22,936 bases of DNA from a virus: positions 1 through 22,936 of the IMG/VR virus record IMGVR_UViG_3300017751_000255, one strand, 5' to 3'. Shown piece by piece: positions 3,189 through 21,889 of this stretch (its first letter is position 1; each line of letters starts with the position of its first letter). The notes below the pieces were generated by a model. It had not been told where the DNA came from, ran no database searches, and saw nothing but the letters and a program-made list of their open reading frames with translations. Both the position numbers and the translations under genes were made by a program.

Positions 3189-3214
3189 GGGATCCTTCGG
3201 GATCCCTTTTTTTT
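3189..3214 (+). terminator. Intrinsic terminator with UUCG tetraloop
   Basis: GGGATCC (3189-3195) pairs perfectly with GGATCCC (3200-3206) around TTCG, the very stable C(UUCG)G tetraloop, followed by eight T (3207-3214). It ends the + strand unit. The stop codon of the convergent gene on the - strand lies inside the T-run (3213-3215). On the - strand the hairpin is followed only by ATAAAACT, so it should be weaker there. Confidence 0.93.
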
Positions 3215-5078
3215 ATCTTGAGATAGGACAGAATGCATTGCCGGGTAGCATTAGACCATCTCCACCCATTGATACTGCACTTGCAGAATTGTATACGTTT
3301 TCATATCGATTAAAGAAGTTCTTAGCTCCTTCATTAACAACAGAACTATTATCAACCATCGTTACACCTGATTGATTTGTACCCTGTTCAAGCCTATTCA
3401 TTAGCTCTTGTGTTTTCTCATTCACCGCATCTTGAGTCGAAAATTCACCAGGCCCATCAGGAATAAGACTCTTTTCATAAGCTTCTCTTGCTCGAGTTTC
3501 TTGGTTCAGCTCAAACTGTTCCAGCGTTTGTGTACCTGGCGCATTTGGATCATAGTCAACAAGCTCAGGATTTTCTTGCATCCGCTTTGTTATCAGATTA
3601 TTGACTTGAAGTAATTGAGCTTTACGTAATTCAACTTCTTCTTTTAATCTCTTGAGGCGCCCAGGTGCATTGATTGCATTACGATTAGTGAGTTCACCTG
3701 CATCTAATTTTCTTTGTAGTTCGATTGCAGCAGCTTCTGATTCAGCTATTTCTTCGTTGAGTTGTGCAGTAACTCGAGCCGCTGCTTCTTCTACAGTTTC
3801 AGCTTCTTCCGCTCGTCTTTTTCGCGATGCTCTGCCTCGAGGATTCACACCTTTCAGACCTTCACCTTGACGTATCTGTTCTTCCTTTATTGCTGCTTCA
3901 ACCGCATTAGGTAACGCACCAGTATCATTCACCGCGTCATCGACTGCAGATACTAAACTCTTACCAATAACATAAGCACCGCCTAACAATGCTCCTACTA
4001 ACGCTCCTTTAATACCAAAGAAGGAACCTAGTGTTGCAAAGCCAGCAACCGTTGATAAATTAGAATTGCCAGCGGTCTCGGTGATAGGTGTATTCATTAA
4101 CTCGTCTTTCGATATGCTCTGTGCATCATCTTTAAACATGTTACCTATTTCATCGCTATAAGCAATTAGACCAGTACCTATCGCTCCTATTAACGCAGTA
4201 CGCCAATTTAAAAATCGACCCATCATAGCCTTTCGACCCGCGGCCTTTCTTTTCTTACCATCAGGATCGTTATCGTCATTCAACTCGTCAGGAATAGGTA
4301 CTGTGCCGCCTGGGCCAGTAGGAGCTACAATAGGAGGAGTACCACCACCCATTAAAGCTCTCAGACCCGCAATAGTAATTGCAGTATTTGCACCAAAATT
4401 TAATATAGAAGGAAGCGCTGCTAAGGCTGCTAATCCGGTTAATGCTAGTGGATCAGTTAATAATTTAGTGAGTTTTTTCCAATCTACATCCTTTAAGAAT
4501 TTTACGAAATTATCAATTCCATCACCGAATGCTTTTTCAAGTTTCTCAACATCAACTCCCATTGATTCTGCAAAACCTTTAAAGAACTGATAACCTAATA
4601 CCGCAGCTATACCGATACCTGCACCAAGCTTAATGTTCTCGAATAAAGACTTGAAATTCTTTTTACTAAATACGCTTTTAATGCGTGAGAAAAATCCTTG
4701 TTGATTAGCATCTTGTTTCTTTTGAGCGGCTAATAAAGATGCTCGATCGTTGTTTGTAGACAACTGTTGATTTTCAAATTGTCTCCGTGCAAGCTCTCGT
4801 CTTTCTTTTTCTGTAGCTGCTTCTGCTTCAAACATTTCAATCTGTGATTCAAGAGCTCCGCTTACGGCAGCATCACCAGTAGTCACTTGACGCAATACTT
4901 CAACTTGAGAGTCGATAGTCTTTTGTAGTGTACCGAAGATTCCTTCAAACTTAGTCAACTCTACTTTAATTGACTTAATTGAATGTGCACCCTCGTTGCG
5001 CAAAAGCTCGCCTTCACGAGTTAAGCGTTTAACGATCGCTTTAGTCTCTTCTGATAATTCGCCTTTAGCTTCTGGCAT
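3213..5078 (-). CDS. Probable tape-measure / baseplate hub protein (positional T4 gp29 equivalent)
   Basis: A 621-residue protein at the end of the hub-gene run, close in size to T4 gp29 (590 residues), the tape-measure and hub protein. The layout suits a tape measure. The charged N-terminus (about 1-130) with heptad-like helices includes EMFEAEAATEKERRELARRQ. It is followed by several hydrophobic stretches: IKLGAGIGIAAVLGY, PLALTGLAALAALPS, TALIGAIGTGLIAY and FFGIKGALVGALLGGAYVIG. A highly charged helical part with KRRAEEAETVEEAAARVTAQ comes next, then an Asn/Ser-rich C-terminus. Hydrophobic segments in a cytoplasmic virion protein are typical of tape measures, which enter the host membrane during ejection. 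I see no sequence motif that proves gp29 homology, so the call rests on position, length and composition. GGAG precedes the ATG. Its stop codon lies in the terminator T-run. Confidence 0.5.
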   Translation of the reverse strand: MPEAKGELSEETKAIVKRLTREGELLRNEGAHSIKSIKVELTKFEGIFGTLQKTIDSQVEVLRQVTTGDAAVSGALESQIEMFEAEAATEKERRELARRQFENQQLSTNNDRASLLAAQKKQDANQQGFFSRIKSVFSKKNFKSLFENIKLGAGIGIAAVLGYQFFKGFAESMGVDVEKLEKAFGDGIDNFVKFLKDVDWKKLTKLLTDPLALTGLAALAALPSILNFGANTAITIAGLRALMGGGTPPIVAPTGPGGTVPIPDELNDDNDPDGKKRKAAGRKAMMGRFLNWRTALIGAIGTGLIAYSDEIGNMFKDDAQSISKDELMNTPITETAGNSNLSTVAGFATLGSFFGIKGALVGALLGGAYVIGKSLVSAVDDAVNDTGALPNAVEAAIKEEQIRQGEGLKGVNPRGRASRKRRAEEAETVEEAAARVTAQLNEEIAESEAAAIELQRKLDAGELTNRNAINAPGRLKRLKEEVELRKAQLLQVNNLITKRMQENPELVDYDPNAPGTQTLEQFELNQETRAREAYEKSLIPDGPGEFSTQDAVNEKTQELMNRLEQGTNQSGVTMVDNSSVVNEGAKNFFNRYENVYNSASAVSMGGDGLMLPGNAFCPISR

Positions 5079-5097: not shown

Positions 5098-5367
5098 TTA
5101 TTTTTGTTCTTTATACATGAAACAATTACTTGGTTGTTCATCTTCTAATAAGACTTGCTGAGCCCACTCGAGTTCTTGTATAATACGATTATACCACTCT
5201 GAATCAATAGTACTATTATGTGGATTGTCACGCTCGATCTTAAGTTGAGACACTCTCATTTTAATATATTCTTGCTTCACTGAACGCTTTCGTCTTTTTC
5301 GAGTTTCTCTTTCGAGATAAGCTAGCTTAGGTATCGAAGAGCATTCCATGTCTTGATCTACTTTCAT
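5098..5367 (-). CDS. Small basic helical protein of unknown function in the hub operon
   Basis: An 89-residue protein with a very basic stretch (RETRKRRKRSVKQEYIK, about residues 21-37), then predicted helices ending EWYNRIIQELEWAQQVLLED. No signal peptide, membrane segment or known motif. It overlaps the preceding 55-residue gene by 4 bases (ATGA) and ends 19 bases before the tape-measure candidate. It therefore belongs to the same translationally coupled run of tail-assembly genes. A role as assembly factor or chaperone for the hub or tape measure is plausible from position only. It could be the counterpart of a T4 hub-assembly gene that has diverged beyond recognition. Confidence 0.6.
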   Translation of the reverse strand: MKVDQDMECSSIPKLAYLERETRKRRKRSVKQEYIKMRVSQLKIERDNPHNSTIDSEWYNRIIQELEWAQQVLLEDEQPSNCFMYKEQK

Positions 5368-5531
5368 TGATTCTTTTCCTTTTGTTTTTCAATCCAATCT
5401 AACAACATCTGGAAGTAAATGTCACGTTCATAGGGCATTAAGTTTTCAACATCTGATATCGAATATTTATGGTGCTGTGCCAAGGCAAATATGAGTTGAT
5501 AGTATGAGCCCAAGTTAATATGGCACAGCAT
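5364..5531 (-). CDS. 51: gp51-like baseplate hub assembly protein (55 aa)
   Basis: A short gene of 55 codons plus TGA, starting at ATG 5531-5529, which overlaps the gp26 stop (TAATG), and ending in an ATGA overlap with the next gene. The product begins MLCHINLGSYYQLIFALAQH, continues with KYSISDVENLMPYERDIYFQ, and ends in a lysine-rich tail. It resembles small proteins annotated as gp51 hub-assembly catalyst in marine T4-like phages; this identification is from memory and is not certain. The product looks helical and soluble. Its frame is -1 relative to gp26, and a T_TTT_TTT heptamer sits six bases before its ATG. It can therefore be made either as a separate protein or as a C-terminal extension of gp26 (289 residues). 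Confidence 0.75.
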   Translation of the reverse strand: MLCHINLGSYYQLIFALAQHHKYSISDVENLMPYERDIYFQMLLDWIEKQKEKNQ

Positions 5532-6232
5532 TAGATAAAAAAACTTTTCATTCCTTCAACTACGAAAGTTTGTTCTTTACCTTCACTATTCGTATACTTG
5601 AGTTCATGCCTCAATCTTGGCATAGTCTCAAAGAACCTTTGTATATCCTGTACAACTTGTCCTGTCATATCATCCATGAACGCATCAATATCTTTTTGTT
5701 CATACTCAGAGAAATCGTATACTTCGTCTTCGCTAGCAAGCTTATCTAAACAACTAATTAGCAAATAATAATTCGTCAATGGATCTTCTGAATCCATTTG
5801 AACAATACGAATAAACTCGTCGATTGAAGGATACTTAAGATAAAGCATGTAGTCATCATTGACTCGTACTTCTTTAGTATGCTCTTCATCCTTTAAAATC
5901 TTAATCTCGTCAATGTCGATTTCAAGTTCAACTTGCTCATTTGTATCTGGATCTCGAACAGAAAAAGCCATAGAGTTACTCACACTACGAGCTCTCAGTA
6001 CTAGCAACACATACTCTAAATCGAACATTGCAAGCTCTGTTACTTTCACATCAAACAAACAATTATTTACAATTTGCTTAGCAGCAATTACTTCCTGCTC
6101 AGCTGAATTACTTTCCGCTGCTACTAGAAGAATCTTTTCTTCTTTTACAGTGAAAGGTCTATATCTTACTTTCTCACCAGTTGATGGAAGCTCAAGCTCC
6201 ATGATTGGTAAGTCAATTTTTGGTAATGCCAT
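5531..6232 (-). CDS. 26: Baseplate hub assembly protein, T4 gp26-like
   Basis: A 233-residue acidic soluble protein of the T4 baseplate-assembly gp26 family (T4 gp26 is 208 residues), required for building the central hub but probably acting as an assembly chaperone. Recognisable features are the opening LPIMELELPSTGEKVRYRPF, the KEEKILLVAAES stretch, EVIAAKQIVNNC, the segment AMFDLEYVLLVLRARSVSN, and the helical C-terminal part ending RLRHELKYTNSEG. It starts with a good site, AGGAGC, 28 bases after the gp54-like gene. The last codons read AGT TTT TTT ATC TAA, containing a slippery run of seven T that allows a -1 shift into the 55-residue gene. The acidic character and a position two genes before the tape-measure candidate resemble tail-assembly chaperones of other phages. 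Confidence 0.85.
   Translation of the reverse strand: MALPKIDLPIMELELPSTGEKVRYRPFTVKEEKILLVAAESNSAEQEVIAAKQIVNNCLFDVKVTELAMFDLEYVLLVLRARSVSNSMAFSVRDPDTNEQVELEIDIDEIKILKDEEHTKEVRVNDDYMLYLKYPSIDEFIRIVQMDSEDPLTNYYLLISCLDKLASEDEVYDFSEYEQKDIDAFMDDMTGQVVQDIQRFFETMPRLRHELKYTNSEGKEQTFVVEGMKSFFI
5537..5543 (-). promoter_or_regulatory. Candidate -1 ribosomal frameshift site T_TTT_TTT
   Basis: Read on the - strand, the gp26 frame is AGT TTT TTT ATC TAA. The heptamer X_XXY_YYZ is T_TTT_TTT, exactly in phase for slippage of both tRNAs by one base. After the shift the frame reads TAT CTA ATG CTG, passing the gp26 stop and entering the 55-residue gene in its own frame. The stop codon lies only one codon after the slip site. 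I did not identify a clear downstream pseudoknot. Confidence 0.55.
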
Positions 6233-13189: not shown

Positions 13190-14719
13190 ATGGCAACTAA
13201 ATGTATTGATAGAACAGATCAAACCACACTAAATAATTTAGCATTAGTTGCTGGGCCTGTTGTCGACGGAAACGGCGTCTATAATGAAAATCAGATTGAT
13301 GCAATCGCAAAAGAAATTGCAGATAACATTAAACAAGATGCAGAACGTAATCCGGTACAAATCGCTTTTAATCGTTATGGAAATGCTTTTTACGAAGTTG
13401 CTCCATTTATTAATGGTGATTTTAAACAAAGCTATACTGGTGAATACGATGACTTAAGTGATCGATACGTAAGAGGTAATATTACGAATATCGAAATAGC
13501 CGAGTTCATGCAAGAGTATAACTATACACCTGATCAGATTACGAATACAAATAATTACGAAAAGCTCGCAAGAGAAATGGATAATTACTATAAGAATTCT
13601 TTTGCTGATAGTATATTAGGTGGAATATGTAATACGTTACAACAGTTCTTCGGTGCAATTGATTCTTTTTATTCTTTATTGGGCACGATCGACGGACTAC
13701 TTACAGATGCCGCAGAGTTTATAGCTAAGGTTCGAAGCTATGAAAGTTTCGCAGAGTTTGTTCAACAAGAAATTATTGATAAACTAATTGCAGAAATACG
13801 AAAGAAGATTGTAGCTGTTATTAATGCAGTGATTCAAGATGTTCGAGATGCAATTCAAAACTTTAACATATTAGGATTAACACTTGAGCAAGCAAGTACT
13901 AAAGCAGTAAAAGAAATTATGACTTATCGCGAGTTATCTTGTACAACTCTTTCTCCTGATAATGAAAAGGATTTCATAAAACGTATTGAAGCTGGTATCG
14001 ATTACTTCGTAAGTAAAATTGAAAATATTGATCTTGAGAGTGTACAATTAATGGTAGCTCGTATATGTGCTTTCGGTGCAAGTATCGAAGCTCTCATTAA
14101 AGATATTAATCGTCCTCTAGATAACTTTGGAGTGAACTACGAGCGAATTGTAAGACGTATTCAAAACATGGGTAAAATAGGAACATCTACTGCGATAGCG
14201 GCCGGCGCGATCCGTTATTCTCCAGAAGCTCGTGATGATAAGATAAATAGTCTAAAGGAACTCTGGGATGGTACAGGTGGTGAACCTCGTATCACTCCAA
14301 GCAATCGCCAACCGGTTGTTGTACCGCCTATAACGAAAGAAGAGTATCAAGACCTTCCTCGTTGCGGATCAGTAATGGCAGGTGAAGACGAAAGGATTAA
14401 GGTACAAGGTGACTGGATAGAAGATCTTGGTCCTGATGGTTACGCTCGAGTTGATCTCGATGTTAAAGTATACCTGATGCGAGTGCAAAAAGAATTGAAT
14501 CAAACATTCACCATTCAGGCTGGATGGCGAAGTAAAGAATACAATGAGGAAATAGGTGCGGATAAGGATTCACCGCATCTAAGTGGTTTAGTTATAGATA
14601 TAGTAAGCGAAGGTCTTGACTTAGAACGTTTTAGCGAGATTGCTTTCCGTAGTGGATTTAAACACGTAGTAGAATACAAGGGCTATATACACCTTGACAT
14701 AAGAGAAATGGCACAATGA
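13190..14719 (+). CDS. Baseplate-associated protein with C-terminal M15-type peptidase domain
   Basis: A 509-residue protein. The N-terminal 350 residues are mostly helical, with a long amphipathic run (DKLIAEIRKKIVAVINAVIQ), suggesting a structural part. The C-terminal 125 residues look like the peptidase M15 (VanY/L-alanyl-D-glutamate or D-Ala-D-Ala peptidase) family: VYLMRVQKELNQTFTIQAGW, then RSKEYNEEIGADKDSPHLSG, LVIDI, and GYIHLDIR. The zinc ligands would be H463 and D470 (SPHLSGLVID) and H501 (IHLD), with D503 following. These enzymes cut peptide bonds of peptidoglycan. It lies directly after gp5, which lacks its usual lysozyme, and before gp25 (ATGA overlap), so it probably supplies the wall-digesting activity of the tail tip. 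I do not recognise the N-terminal domain. Confidence 0.75.
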   Translation: MATKCIDRTDQTTLNNLALVAGPVVDGNGVYNENQIDAIAKEIADNIKQDAERNPVQIAFNRYGNAFYEVAPFINGDFKQSYTGEYDDLSDRYVRGNITNIEIAEFMQEYNYTPDQITNTNNYEKLAREMDNYYKNSFADSILGGICNTLQQFFGAIDSFYSLLGTIDGLLTDAAEFIAKVRSYESFAEFVQQEIIDKLIAEIRKKIVAVINAVIQDVRDAIQNFNILGLTLEQASTKAVKEIMTYRELSCTTLSPDNEKDFIKRIEAGIDYFVSKIENIDLESVQLMVARICAFGASIEALIKDINRPLDNFGVNYERIVRRIQNMGKIGTSTAIAAGAIRYSPEARDDKINSLKELWDGTGGEPRITPSNRQPVVVPPITKEEYQDLPRCGSVMAGEDERIKVQGDWIEDLGPDGYARVDLDVKVYLMRVQKELNQTFTIQAGWRSKEYNEEIGADKDSPHLSGLVIDIVSEGLDLERFSEIAFRSGFKHVVEYKGYIHLDIREMAQ

Positions 14720-17034: not shown

Positions 17035-20000
17035 ATGGAAGTCGAAAAGAATATAGCCTTTTTCATAAAGGAACAGTTTCCGGGCATCTATAAAGAGAAT
17101 GGTCCAGAACTTGTTGCTCTTGTTGAAGACTATTACAAATTTTTAGAAACGCAGAGTAATCAATCTCTGTATGTTTCTCGTCGACTATTTGAATACCGAG
17201 ATGTTGACACAACGCTTGCTGAATTACTTCTATTCTTTAAAAATAAGTTTCTACATGACCTTCCTCTTAAAGAAAGTACAATAAACTTTATAGTTAAAAA
17301 CGTTCTCGATCTTTATAGACGTAAGGGTACACCTGCTGGTATCGAATTATTCTTCTCAATTTTCTTCCAAGAATTTGATATCGATATTGTTTATCCAGCT
17401 GATAAGATGATGAAGGTGTCGAATAGTAAATGGAGACGCGGTGTCTATTTACAAATCATTCCTAATGATAATCGATTTAGATCAGTATCAGGAAAGGTGT
17501 ATACTTACCTTGATTTAATTTCAAAGAATATTGAAGGAAGTACTTCTGGCGCAAAGGCTGCTGTAAGTAAAGTCAACTTTATTATGTTGAATGGAATCAA
17601 GACTCCTATCATTTATATTGATGAAGTGCAAGGTAACTTTGAAAGATACGACGAAGTCATTGCAGTTGTAAATGGAGAAAGCGTTGTATTTGGTCGTGTT
17701 GCTGGCTCACTGAGTGCTTTTGAAGTTGATCAGAATTCTGATGATGCAACCGTAGGAAACTCTATAGGAGATCAACTCACTATTACATCTCAATTCGGTG
17801 ATGGTGGTGAGTGTATTGTTACAGATGTAAGTAACTTAATATCCGGTGATGTACGATACGAGATTGACGATGGCGGTTATGGATATACTATTGATAATAC
17901 TCGTTTACAGGTTTCAACACAAACATTACTTGTAGACAATCCTAATTTACAATTCATACCTTACGAAAGATTACGAGACTCGGGTGGTAATGAAGCAATC
18001 GTAATAGGTCAGACTGAAGATCTATTAGGTGTAAAATCACAAGCTGGCCAAGAGTTCGATTTAAGTCGTACAATTAATACATTAGATCGTGATACCAATT
18101 TCCAAGTAGTACCTATCGAGATTAGTCCATTCAATGCTACATCGCCTGGACCACTTTATCCTGATGGTGGTGACGATGAAAACGATGTTATTGTAGGAAA
18201 CTTAACGAACACATCTCAAGTTTCAATTATTACAGACTTAATTGCTCCACATATTACGACTCAATTAGATGCTGCAGATTATGAAGCTACCGCTCCAATG
18301 TCTGGTACAGCCTCACCGGTTACGTTAACGACACCATTGAATCAAGCGTTTAATGTACAACCATTTACGATAGGTCGAATTGGTAGTTTCAATAATGTTC
18401 GTAAAGGTAGCAATTATCAAACTCAAGTATTCGCTCGAGCTGAAGACGAGATCTTTAGTCGACTACAAAGACGTAATCAGGTACTTAGATTTGATGATCC
18501 CGGTGAAGCAAGTACGTTTAGTGTAGGCGAAACCATTACGCAAAATAATACTAACGTTCAAGGTTTAGTACAAGTTGTTGATAATGTAAATGGATTTATT
18601 AGTGTATTACCATTCGATTATTACGGGTTTAATAACACTGACGGAATTCAGAAAGGACAAATTGTTGTTCCTATTGCAGGTGCAGCACTTGACTATGATC
18701 GAGATGTACTCGGCGATAATGCTCAGATTAATGCGATTACAGATTTTGCAGTTGGTAAAATTAAAGAAGTTGCAATATCAAATTCAGGATTTGGTTACGT
18801 TGACTCGGCAATAGGTACACTAAAAACAAAAGACACTAATGAAGTACGTGCCGGTGGAACAATACGAACACTGACACAAGGAAAGACTGCAGGATATTGG
18901 TCTTCATTCTCGTCTCACTTAAATGGTTACCAACCTGATGGCGAATATTATGAAGCTGGTATGCGAGTACAAGACAGTGATTTCTTCCAAGAATATTCAT
19001 ACCAAATTAAATCGTCTCTTGCTAAATCACAATATGAATCTTTACTAAGAGATAATGTTCACCTTGCCGGAACCAAAATGTTCGGTGACTTCATCTATAA
19101 GGTGAAAGTCGATTCAGAGACAAAACCACGATTCTATCGTAAGTTTAATGATGATGGTACAGGTAGCCCATTTGATGTTGCAGATGTAACGAATATCGAA
19201 GCATCCGTAACGAACTATACAGTTGATAGTAATTATTTAACTGTCGATCATATTCCTGGAGGAACCGGCGGACTGGTTCTTACAAACGACACTGTTTTAG
19301 ATATTACTAAGAACTGGTCACAGGGTCTCCACATTTATTCGACTACAGTACAATTACCATCGAGTGGAACAGGTCCTTTCCCTGTAGCAATATTACTACA
19401 CGGTAACGGCGGCAATGGTGCCGGCATGGTCTCTCAATTTACGAGCGACTTACCTGGCCACATCTTAATCGGTGTTGATGGATATCAAAATAGTTGGAAC
19501 ATTAGTAACGAATCATCGAATGGTCCTGACATTGAAATGCTAACAGAGCTCGTTTCAAACATTCAGGTATATGCTAATGTTGATGAAACTAAGATTCGTA
19601 TTGTAGGTTCAAGTAACGGTGGTGCTCTTGCATTAAGAGCCGCTGTTGAAATTAGTGATCCAGCTATTGATACAATTGTTTGTATGATATCGCAAACGAA
19701 TACAGATCAATATCGTAGTGGACAATTCTATTATCCATTTAATGAAGAGCTTACAGGTGATGCATACCTGAATGATGGATATGATACTCCGGTAACGACA
19801 ATTCCGCAAAGACGACTTGTTCAAATGAATGGCGTCAACGATACAGTCGTTCCATATAACGGAGGAACATTCGTAGGAATGACATTCCTTACTGCTCCTA
19901 ATTCAGCATATCGATTTGCTGGTGCATTAGGCTTTGGAGGTGTTCAATCAGCAGGTGTTCCATTCGGTAATAACAGTAATATTGTAGACTATGGCAATAC

Positions 20001-20097
20001 CATATTCATGAATGATAACGTGGGTCACACAGTATCACCGGATATGCGAGTGTTGCTTAACAACTATCTCGAAGATAACTACAAGATAACATATTAG
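17035..20097 (+). CDS. 7: gp7-like baseplate wedge protein with fused C-terminal alpha/beta-hydrolase domain
   Basis: A 1020-residue protein. The N-terminus (FFIKEQFPGIYKENGPELVA, then LVEDYYKFLETQSNQSLYVS, FKNKFLHDLPLKES and LYRRKGTPAGIELFFSIFFQ) is the typical opening of wedge proteins annotated gp7 (or gp8) in marine T4-like phages. Beta-rich repeats fill the middle. A segment with YQIKSSLAKSQYESLLRDNV and AGTKMFG (to residue about 684) resembles the usual end of such proteins. From about 745 an alpha/beta-hydrolase of the PHB-depolymerase/feruloyl-esterase type follows. It shows the oxyanion region LLHGNGGNG (H789), the nucleophile elbow VGSSNGGA (S860), the acid in NGVNDTVVP (D936), and the histidine in NVGHTVS (H998). 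The triad is complete and in order, so an active esterase is likely. The fusion is unusual for a wedge protein. Confidence 0.8.
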   Translation: MEVEKNIAFFIKEQFPGIYKENGPELVALVEDYYKFLETQSNQSLYVSRRLFEYRDVDTTLAELLLFFKNKFLHDLPLKESTINFIVKNVLDLYRRKGTPAGIELFFSIFFQEFDIDIVYPADKMMKVSNSKWRRGVYLQIIPNDNRFRSVSGKVYTYLDLISKNIEGSTSGAKAAVSKVNFIMLNGIKTPIIYIDEVQGNFERYDEVIAVVNGESVVFGRVAGSLSAFEVDQNSDDATVGNSIGDQLTITSQFGDGGECIVTDVSNLISGDVRYEIDDGGYGYTIDNTRLQVSTQTLLVDNPNLQFIPYERLRDSGGNEAIVIGQTEDLLGVKSQAGQEFDLSRTINTLDRDTNFQVVPIEISPFNATSPGPLYPDGGDDENDVIVGNLTNTSQVSIITDLIAPHITTQLDAADYEATAPMSGTASPVTLTTPLNQAFNVQPFTIGRIGSFNNVRKGSNYQTQVFARAEDEIFSRLQRRNQVLRFDDPGEASTFSVGETITQNNTNVQGLVQVVDNVNGFISVLPFDYYGFNNTDGIQKGQIVVPIAGAALDYDRDVLGDNAQINAITDFAVGKIKEVAISNSGFGYVDSAIGTLKTKDTNEVRAGGTIRTLTQGKTAGYWSSFSSHLNGYQPDGEYYEAGMRVQDSDFFQEYSYQIKSSLAKSQYESLLRDNVHLAGTKMFGDFIYKVKVDSETKPRFYRKFNDDGTGSPFDVADVTNIEASVTNYTVDSNYLTVDHIPGGTGGLVLTNDTVLDITKNWSQGLHIYSTTVQLPSSGTGPFPVAILLHGNGGNGAGMVSQFTSDLPGHILIGVDGYQNSWNISNESSNGPDIEMLTELVSNIQVYANVDETKIRIVGSSNGGALALRAAVEISDPAIDTIVCMISQTNTDQYRSGQFYYPFNEELTGDAYLNDGYDTPVTTIPQRRLVQMNGVNDTVVPYNGGTFVGMTFLTAPNSAYRFAGALGFGGVQSAGVPFGNNSNIVDYGNTIFMNDNVGHTVSPDMRVLLNNYLEDNYKITY

Positions 20098-20134: not shown

Positions 20135-21889
20135 ATGGCCAAGCAAACAATAGGAATCGGATCAACGGCAAATGACGGAACAGGCGATCCGTTAAGAAAC
20201 GCATTCGATAAAGTCAACGATAACTTTAATGAGTTATACTTCTCAGCGGGAGGAAATTCACCGGTTAGTCTTTTCGACTCTAACCTGAATATCGACTATC
20301 CCGGCAAACCGAATAAAATCTCGTTTCTGTATAGCACAGAAGCTGACCTGTTAGCAGTTGATGCTTCGGTATATCATGGCGCAATAGGCCACGCTCATGA
20401 TACTGGCGCATTGTACTATGCTCACGGTGAGTGGCGTAAGCTACTCGCGGACACCTCAGCTGGAGCCATAACAAACTATACTGATCCTTTATCTCCATTT
20501 GTTTATGATGGTGCTATCACAAACGATGAAGCAGCAAACTACGTTTTACAAGCAAATGGTGATGACACATATACTTGGGTAGCTCAAGGTGGCGGCGGTG
20601 GTGGTAGTTCATACACTAACAGTGATGTGGATGCACACATTAATACTTCAGCTGCACAAAATAATGAAGTATTAAGTTGGGATGGTTCTGATTATGCTTG
20701 GGTTGCACAGGGTGGTGGAGGAAGCAGTACGAACTCTTTTGCTACAATCGCTATTGCAGGTGTTTCATTACAAGCAGCTAGTGCGACTGACACATTAACG
20801 ATTAGCCCAGGAGCTAATGTTACTCTTACAGGTGATCCTAACAGTAATGAAATTACAATTGCAGCTTCAGGTGGCGGCGGTGGTAGTGGTACTGATCTGA
20901 ATAGTTTATCAGCTGGTACTATTGATGTAGCTAGTGACTTTATTGGCTTTATCGATAATGACGATAGTAGTAATTCTAAAAAGGAATCGATAGTCGATTT
21001 AGTTGCAGCAATCGCAGGCTCAGGATTGACTGCATCGGCCGGTCAGCTTACAGCATCAAGTGGTTCAAGTACTCTTGCTGACTTAACAGAAGTTGATATG
21101 GCTGACCTTGATCTTCATGATATGGCAGCAACTGCTGTTTCAACTTATTATGTTGTAGGACCAGACAGTTCAAGATATACAATGGATCAATTGCCCGGTG
21201 ACAATCCTACTGTTTATGTTACTGCAGGTCAAACTGTTGCTTTTGAATTAAATGGTGCTACTTCATCTCACCCATTTGAAATACGACAGCCTGATGGTAC
21301 AACAGCTTATAATACAGGTCTTGTTCATTACGCAAACGACGGTACTAAGTCAGTAGGCTCAGCTGCACAAGGTCAATATGAAGGAACTCTTTATTGGAAG
21401 GTTCCCGGCAATATCAGTGGAACATACAAGTATATTTGTACTGTTCATAGTGGAATGATCGGTGATATTGTTATTGCTGACCCATCAGCGAGCAGTGGTG
21501 GTGGCGGCGGTAGCCTTTCACGAGTTACTGAACTCAAAAATACTGGATCATTTACTGGTAACCAATCGGTTGACTTTACTACACTCGGTAAATCATACGC
21601 CCTCTATACAGTTGTTGCTGAAAAAGAATGTCGTATTCGTATTTACTCAGATGCAGCATCACGAACTGCTGACTTATCTCGACCAGTGAGCGATGATCCT
21701 CCGGAAGGTGCAGGTGTTATTGCTGAGTTTGTTGCAACCTCACCTAACACAACATTTAAAGTTACACCAGCAATATACGGATATATTGACGATGGCGAAA
21801 CAGTTATGCCAGTTACCGTTACGAATAACACGGGCGGTGCTACTGACATAGACGTTACGTTTACTGTACTCAAACTCGAAGATAACTAA
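20135..21889 (+). CDS. gp10-like baseplate/fibre protein with cupredoxin domain
   Basis: A 584-residue protein. Residues 4-37 (TIGIGSTANDGTGDPLRNAF, then DKVNDNFNELY) match the N-terminus of T4 gp10 (INIGNVVDDGTGDYLRKGGI), which binds gp7. The preceding gene is gp7-like, so it should attach to the wedge. Two similar units ending WVAQGGGG follow, joined by polyglycine linkers. A region near 195-330 has short fibre-like motifs. Residues about 338-455 form a cupredoxin (plastocyanin-like) domain, with SSHPFEIR (H379) and YICTVHSGMIGDI (C435, H438, M441). This is the complete His-Cys-His-Met set of a type-1 copper site. A Gly5 linker leads to a C-terminal beta domain (490-584). It is expressed from its own late promoter. 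Role: baseplate pin or fibre; the copper domain may serve binding or display. Confidence 0.75.
   Translation: MAKQTIGIGSTANDGTGDPLRNAFDKVNDNFNELYFSAGGNSPVSLFDSNLNIDYPGKPNKISFLYSTEADLLAVDASVYHGAIGHAHDTGALYYAHGEWRKLLADTSAGAITNYTDPLSPFVYDGAITNDEAANYVLQANGDDTYTWVAQGGGGGGSSYTNSDVDAHINTSAAQNNEVLSWDGSDYAWVAQGGGGSSTNSFATIAIAGVSLQAASATDTLTISPGANVTLTGDPNSNEITIAASGGGGGSGTDLNSLSAGTIDVASDFIGFIDNDDSSNSKKESIVDLVAAIAGSGLTASAGQLTASSGSSTLADLTEVDMADLDLHDMAATAVSTYYVVGPDSSRYTMDQLPGDNPTVYVTAGQTVAFELNGATSSHPFEIRQPDGTTAYNTGLVHYANDGTKSVGSAAQGQYEGTLYWKVPGNISGTYKYICTVHSGMIGDIVIADPSASSGGGGGSLSRVTELKNTGSFTGNQSVDFTTLGKSYALYTVVAEKECRIRIYSDAASRTADLSRPVSDDPPEGAGVIAEFVATSPNTTFKVTPAIYGYIDDGETVMPVTVTNNTGGATDIDVTFTVLKLEDN
20543..20728 (+). 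repeat. Imperfect protein repeat, two W-V-A-Q-polyGly units
   Basis: Two units in the gp10-like gene, at 20543-20611 and 20669-20728, both encode VL-x-x-x-G-x-D-x-(0,2)-Y-x-W-V-A-Q followed by four to six glycines and two serines. The DNA differs, so it is an old duplication kept at protein level. Such modules act as spacers or assembly cassettes in tail-fibre proteins of marine phages. Confidence 0.65.

Follow-up and report, generated by a model that had tools for sequence, protein, structure and literature searches.

The sequence that we examined, IMGVR_UViG_3300017751_000255 (IMG/VR), spans positions 1-22,936, and this whole stretch of 22,936 nucleotides is referred to below as the window. 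Its source is an uncharacterised marine relative of phage T4. On the minus strand, the gene for a 233-residue homologue of T4 gp26 (5531..6232; PF12322, Pfam T4_baseplate, E 1e-54; phrog_150, E 3e-60) is followed by a gp51-like ORF of 55 residues (5364..5531), which lies in the -1 frame relative to gp26 and matches phrog_634 (E 1e-21) at profile positions 59-112 of 121 only. By these and the profile matches described below, the two parts are homologous to the T4 gp26 and gp51 families, respectively. The gp26 stop codon, TAA (5531..5533, minus strand), overlaps the ATG of gp51 (TAATG), such that the gp51 frame of the window has a start codon of its own. The heptamer T_TTT_TTT (5537..5543, minus strand) is in the gp26 phase, one codon ahead of that stop, and an SD-like GAAGGA (5552..5557, minus strand), a candidate 5′ stimulator, is located 8 nt upstream of the slip site. 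On the coding strand, the junction therefore reads GAA GGA ATG AAA AGT TTT TTT ATC TAA TGC. An earlier note on this DNA had described an in-phase heptamer one codon before the gp26 stop (AGT TTT TTT ATC TAA), which is exact, and an overlapping -1 frame ORF that would give a 289-residue product, which we confirmed from the coordinates and the translation. The predicted product carries the junction ...KSFF-YLMLCH..., and the -1 frame entered by slippage (5364..5543, minus strand) would form the C-terminal extension, or gp51 domain, of a long chaperone, as suggested by phrog_634 and by the match between a profile of fused products and T4 gp51.

In-phase heptamers of the form X_XXY_YYZ are not rare in the window (24 per 7,070 codons, all genes counted), and a single slippery site near a stop codon is therefore weak evidence when taken alone. 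An A_AAA_AAG at the end of a RegA-like ORF was considered as a second frameshift site and rejected, as was a T_TTA_AAA near the end of a peroxiredoxin-like gene; in each case the -1 frame is short and joins no gene. The latter gene (PF08534; 2359-2868, plus strand), found here in a T4-like phage, has its heptamer a few codons before the stop, with a -1 frame that is open for ~35 codons. The gp26/gp51 site rises above chance because the site, its phase and its distance from the stop are conserved across relatives.

Relatives were fetched for the gp26 of the window (n = 80, IMG/VR), the S-SM1 protein (n = 80), and the C48C1 protein (n = 12), and further loci came from KVP40, a relative, and annotated records. 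The resulting set comprises 179 loci with both a gp26 and a gp51 part, in 90 lineages (<90% gp26 identity). The earlier note had proposed such an alignment of junctions, and it upholds both the phase and the heptamer: gp51 is in the -1 frame relative to gp26 in all 179 loci, and in 176 of them 0-1 codon separates T_TTT_TTC or T_TTT_TTT from the gp26 stop. The remaining three, near-identical contigs of a single lineage, have G_TTT_TTT instead. This lineage is the nearest approach to the counter-example that the note had named, a relative that keeps TAATG and lacks a slippery site, of which there was none in the 179 loci. The frameshift pattern is also present in KVP40-like Vibrio phages, in the Methylophilales phage Melnitz, and in cyanophages. 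Added later and read by eye, the junctions of Ochrobactrum phage OC (GAT TTT TTT ATC TAA) and Aeromonas phage Ahp1 (GAT TTT TTC GGC TAA) fit the pattern, and that of Pseudoalteromonas phage XG4 (CGT TTT TTA GTA TAA) contains T_TTT_TTA. The gp26 stop abuts the heptamer in loci L087, L089, and L172-L181 (TTT TTT TAA or TGA), and the 0-frame codon after the slip codons is therefore the stop.

The encoded amino acids account for some of the T run, because the FF dipeptide is itself conserved in the protein, being invariant in gp26, T4 included. Codon choice at the heptamer nevertheless goes beyond what FF requires. The first Phe codon of the site is TTT in 90/90 lineages, compared to 71% TTT at the other Phe codons of gp26 (p ~4e-14 with lineages treated as independent, a value that kinship makes overstated), and the codon preceding FF ends in T in 89/90 lineages, even though the residue at this place is Ser, Thr, Ala, or Asp. 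T4 keeps FF as TTC TTT (GAG TTC TTT GAG), without a slippery site, which it has lost.

We considered whether gp51 might instead be a separate 55-residue protein, produced by termination-reinitiation at TAATG, with a T run that is incidental and stems from FF. The TAATG of the window, the ATG found before the conserved gp51 core in 44/90 lineages, and the invariance of FF would all suit such a route. However, 46/90 lineages have no ATG before the core; in 17/90 there is only GTG or TTG, and in 29/90 none of the three. The startless lineages keep the heptamer and also conserve the peptide immediately following the slip site (e.g., YLALCHISLGEYYQ and RLALLHNNLRNYYD), and from the slip site onward the conserved peptide follows the pattern x-x-x-L-x-H-x-x-L. 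Retention of the slippery site without a gp51 start codon is common among relatives. Because 29 of the 90 lineages are startless and yet conserve the peptide, we infer that the shared route of expression is fusion, not reinitiation, and that a separate gp51 start is dispensable among the relatives. The excess codon bias at the heptamer likewise argues against an incidental T run, and we regard reinitiation as the explanation of this locus as very unlikely. In GenBank, gp51 is omitted from the annotation of ACG-2014d and begun inside the domain in Melnitz and C48C1.

The two frames could also be joined if RNA polymerase slipped on the T run, giving mRNAs with an extra U from which the fusion would be translated. 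Slippage of this kind is known to be productive on homopolymer runs (reviewed in PMC5009743), and the run in the window comprises seven Ts. In most relatives, however, the run stops at six Ts and a C comes next (T_TTT_TTC). A run of six is short for transcriptional slippage, and the phase, which is conserved, is as expected of tandem tRNA slippage, making polymerase slippage, in our view, improbable in the extreme. Translational frameshifting is not without a point against it, as, according to the same review (PMC5009743), shifting in E. coli is less frequent on U_UUU_UUU than on A_AAA_AAG. On balance, we are confident that gp26 and the gp51 ORF very probably constitute a single tail assembly chaperone locus with a programmed -1 frameshift, in which "gp51" would mostly be a C-terminal domain and not a separate gene. 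In the window, both the fusion and separate translation of gp51 are possible. We can also envisage a third product in phages with TAATG, including that of the window, namely a free, reinitiated gp51 domain alongside gp26 and the gp26-gp51 fusion, with slippage driven by the SD-like element and the adjacent stop and not by a downstream RNA structure, but this is a tentative and rather unlikely proposal.

Comparison with T4 suggests what the two products of the locus may be. Residues 15-243 of T4 gp51 match the profile of fused products end to end (E 4e-13; best shuffled decoy, 0.03), with the gp51 part of the profile matching residues 208-239, while the gp26 part alone gives a weaker match to T4 gp51 (E 1e-6). 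T4 gp26 matches the gp26 part of the fused profile only, and T4 gp26 and gp51 are mutually similar (E 3e-6). Given this full-length alignment of T4 gp51 with the fused product, gp26 would be the short form of a putative chaperone (TAC-N) and the gp26-gp51 fusion the long form (TAC-NC). T4 gp26 is thus homologous to the gp26 part of the window locus and T4 gp51 to gp26 and gp51 fused, but T4 encodes the short and long forms in two genes of opposite orientation and lacks a slippery site. Homologues of T4 gp51 were found in 1,339 phage records, most of them enterobacterial. These observations fit a picture in which most of the sampled T4-like phages have a single chaperone locus and the relatives of T4 have two genes.

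The E. coli dnaX frameshift site is stimulated by an SD sequence ahead of it, and the spacing resembles that of the SD-like sequence described here. At the SD-like place, the Glu codon is GAG in 39/83 cases, versus 25% elsewhere (p 3e-5), and the Gly codon is GGA or GGG in 62/90, versus 37% elsewhere (p 3e-8), with relatedness inflating the significance of both values. The bias is seen in codon counts only; when the energy of the SD-like duplex was compared to that of synonymous versions, the mean fraction was 0.54. A search for conserved 3′ RNA structure found no consensus in the clade of the window, for which we rejected a downstream stimulatory structure, and the window's own junction gave z = +0.2 in the test for downstream RNA structure. 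One cyanophage subgroup may have a 5-bp hairpin with covariation, picked by eye, but it was also rejected as a stimulator: its outer stem fails and RNAalifold predicts none.

Downstream of gp51, the window contains an 89-residue ORF of unassigned function (5098..5367, minus strand; no Pfam match), followed by a 621-residue tape-measure candidate (3213..5078, minus strand), which the earlier note had correctly placed two genes downstream. Homologues of the 89-residue ORF occur only in L001, L004-L007, L009, L010, L028-L030, and partly L032, which makes it a feature of some clade members; elsewhere among the relatives, gp51 is directly followed by the large ORF. An ORF of 408-1018 residues follows gp51 in 44 relatives, with one small ORF intervening in the window, and within the window's clade this large ORF shares its first ~60 residues with the 621-residue ORF. 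No similarity was detectable between the large ORF and T4 gp29, and its reading as a tape measure is suggested by position and size. A structure model of gp26 (mean pLDDT 83) strongly matches models of T4-like hub chaperones; its top PDB match, the HK97 tail assembly chaperone 2ob9, is not significant (E 0.53, prob 0.63). A search by sequence found no solved structure.

Further genes of note in the window lie on the plus strand. A structural-region protein encoded at 13190-14719 carries a peptidase M15 domain (PF08291, E 2e-7) at its C-terminal end. The C-terminal part of a 1,020-residue baseplate-region protein (17035-20097) looks esterase/hydrolase-like by eye (ILLHGNGGNG, GSSNGG); the protein matches nothing in Pfam at E 0.001. 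A gp9/10-like protein (20135-21889; PF07880) includes an internal stretch that appears cupredoxin-like by eye (TVYVTAGQTVAFEL...YICTVHSGMIGDIVI), with no confirmation from Pfam.

Based on these comparisons, we propose that most ribosomes would read gp26 through to its stop, producing TAC-N, and that a minority, with tRNA-Phe in both the P and A sites on T_TTT_TTT, would slip back by one base and continue in the gp51 frame to produce the 289-residue TAC-NC. The SD-like sequence 8 nt upstream may assist. The site, its phase, its conservation, and the dispensability of a gp51 start among relatives are evident in the alignments; slippage in cells, its efficiency, and the chaperone role are predictions. 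By analogy with lambda G/GT, TAC-N would coat the tape-measure protein, the C-terminal domain of TAC-NC would recruit tail tube or hub subunits, and neither would be expected in the virion. The suggestion in the earlier note that gp26/gp51 is the T4-like counterpart of lambda G/GT gains support from the relatives. Lambda has a short chaperone and a -1 extended form, with the C-domain in the -1 frame, just upstream of the tape-measure gene, and the window locus has a predicted pair of the same layout upstream of a tape-measure candidate. In contrast to lambda, whose slip site is G_GGA_AAG, the slip site here is 0-1 codon from the stop, and the phage is a T4-like myovirus.

The same note was not aware of this mechanism having been established for gp26/gp51 in T4-like phages, a remark that the literature has overtaken. 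In 2022, Vladimirov, Gautam and Davidson (Virology 566:9-15; doi 10.1016/j.virol.2021.11.003) reportedly named T4 genes 26 and 51 as chaperones in their abstract, and are said to have described, for several T4-like groups, -1 frameshifting at poly-T sites, with two separate genes in T4. The PRFect paper (PMC10885494) and the phage Adele paper (PMC12846349) cite Vladimirov et al. 2022 for T4-like tail assembly chaperones; they mention poly-T slip sites in the TAC-N genes of T4-like phages, and T4-like phages in which a short gene and a long one take the place of frameshifting. The phage Adele paper (PMC12846349) also predicts, for Vandenendeviridae/Andersonviridae, a conserved -1 frameshift at a poly-T motif where TAC-N ends; these are other phage families with a different slip motif (GTTTTT). 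The frameshifted T4-like tail chaperone, proposed in 2022, is thus a correct finding of a known kind. What we would add is scale, the absent start codons, the SD-like codon bias, and the lack of a conserved 3′ structure in the window's clade. The gain is one of breadth and annotation, with a large comparative set of chaperones to contrast with the two-gene arrangement of T4, and not a new principle. For marine T4-like phages, it means that "gp51, baseplate hub assembly catalyst" would mostly be a mis-annotated C-terminal domain.
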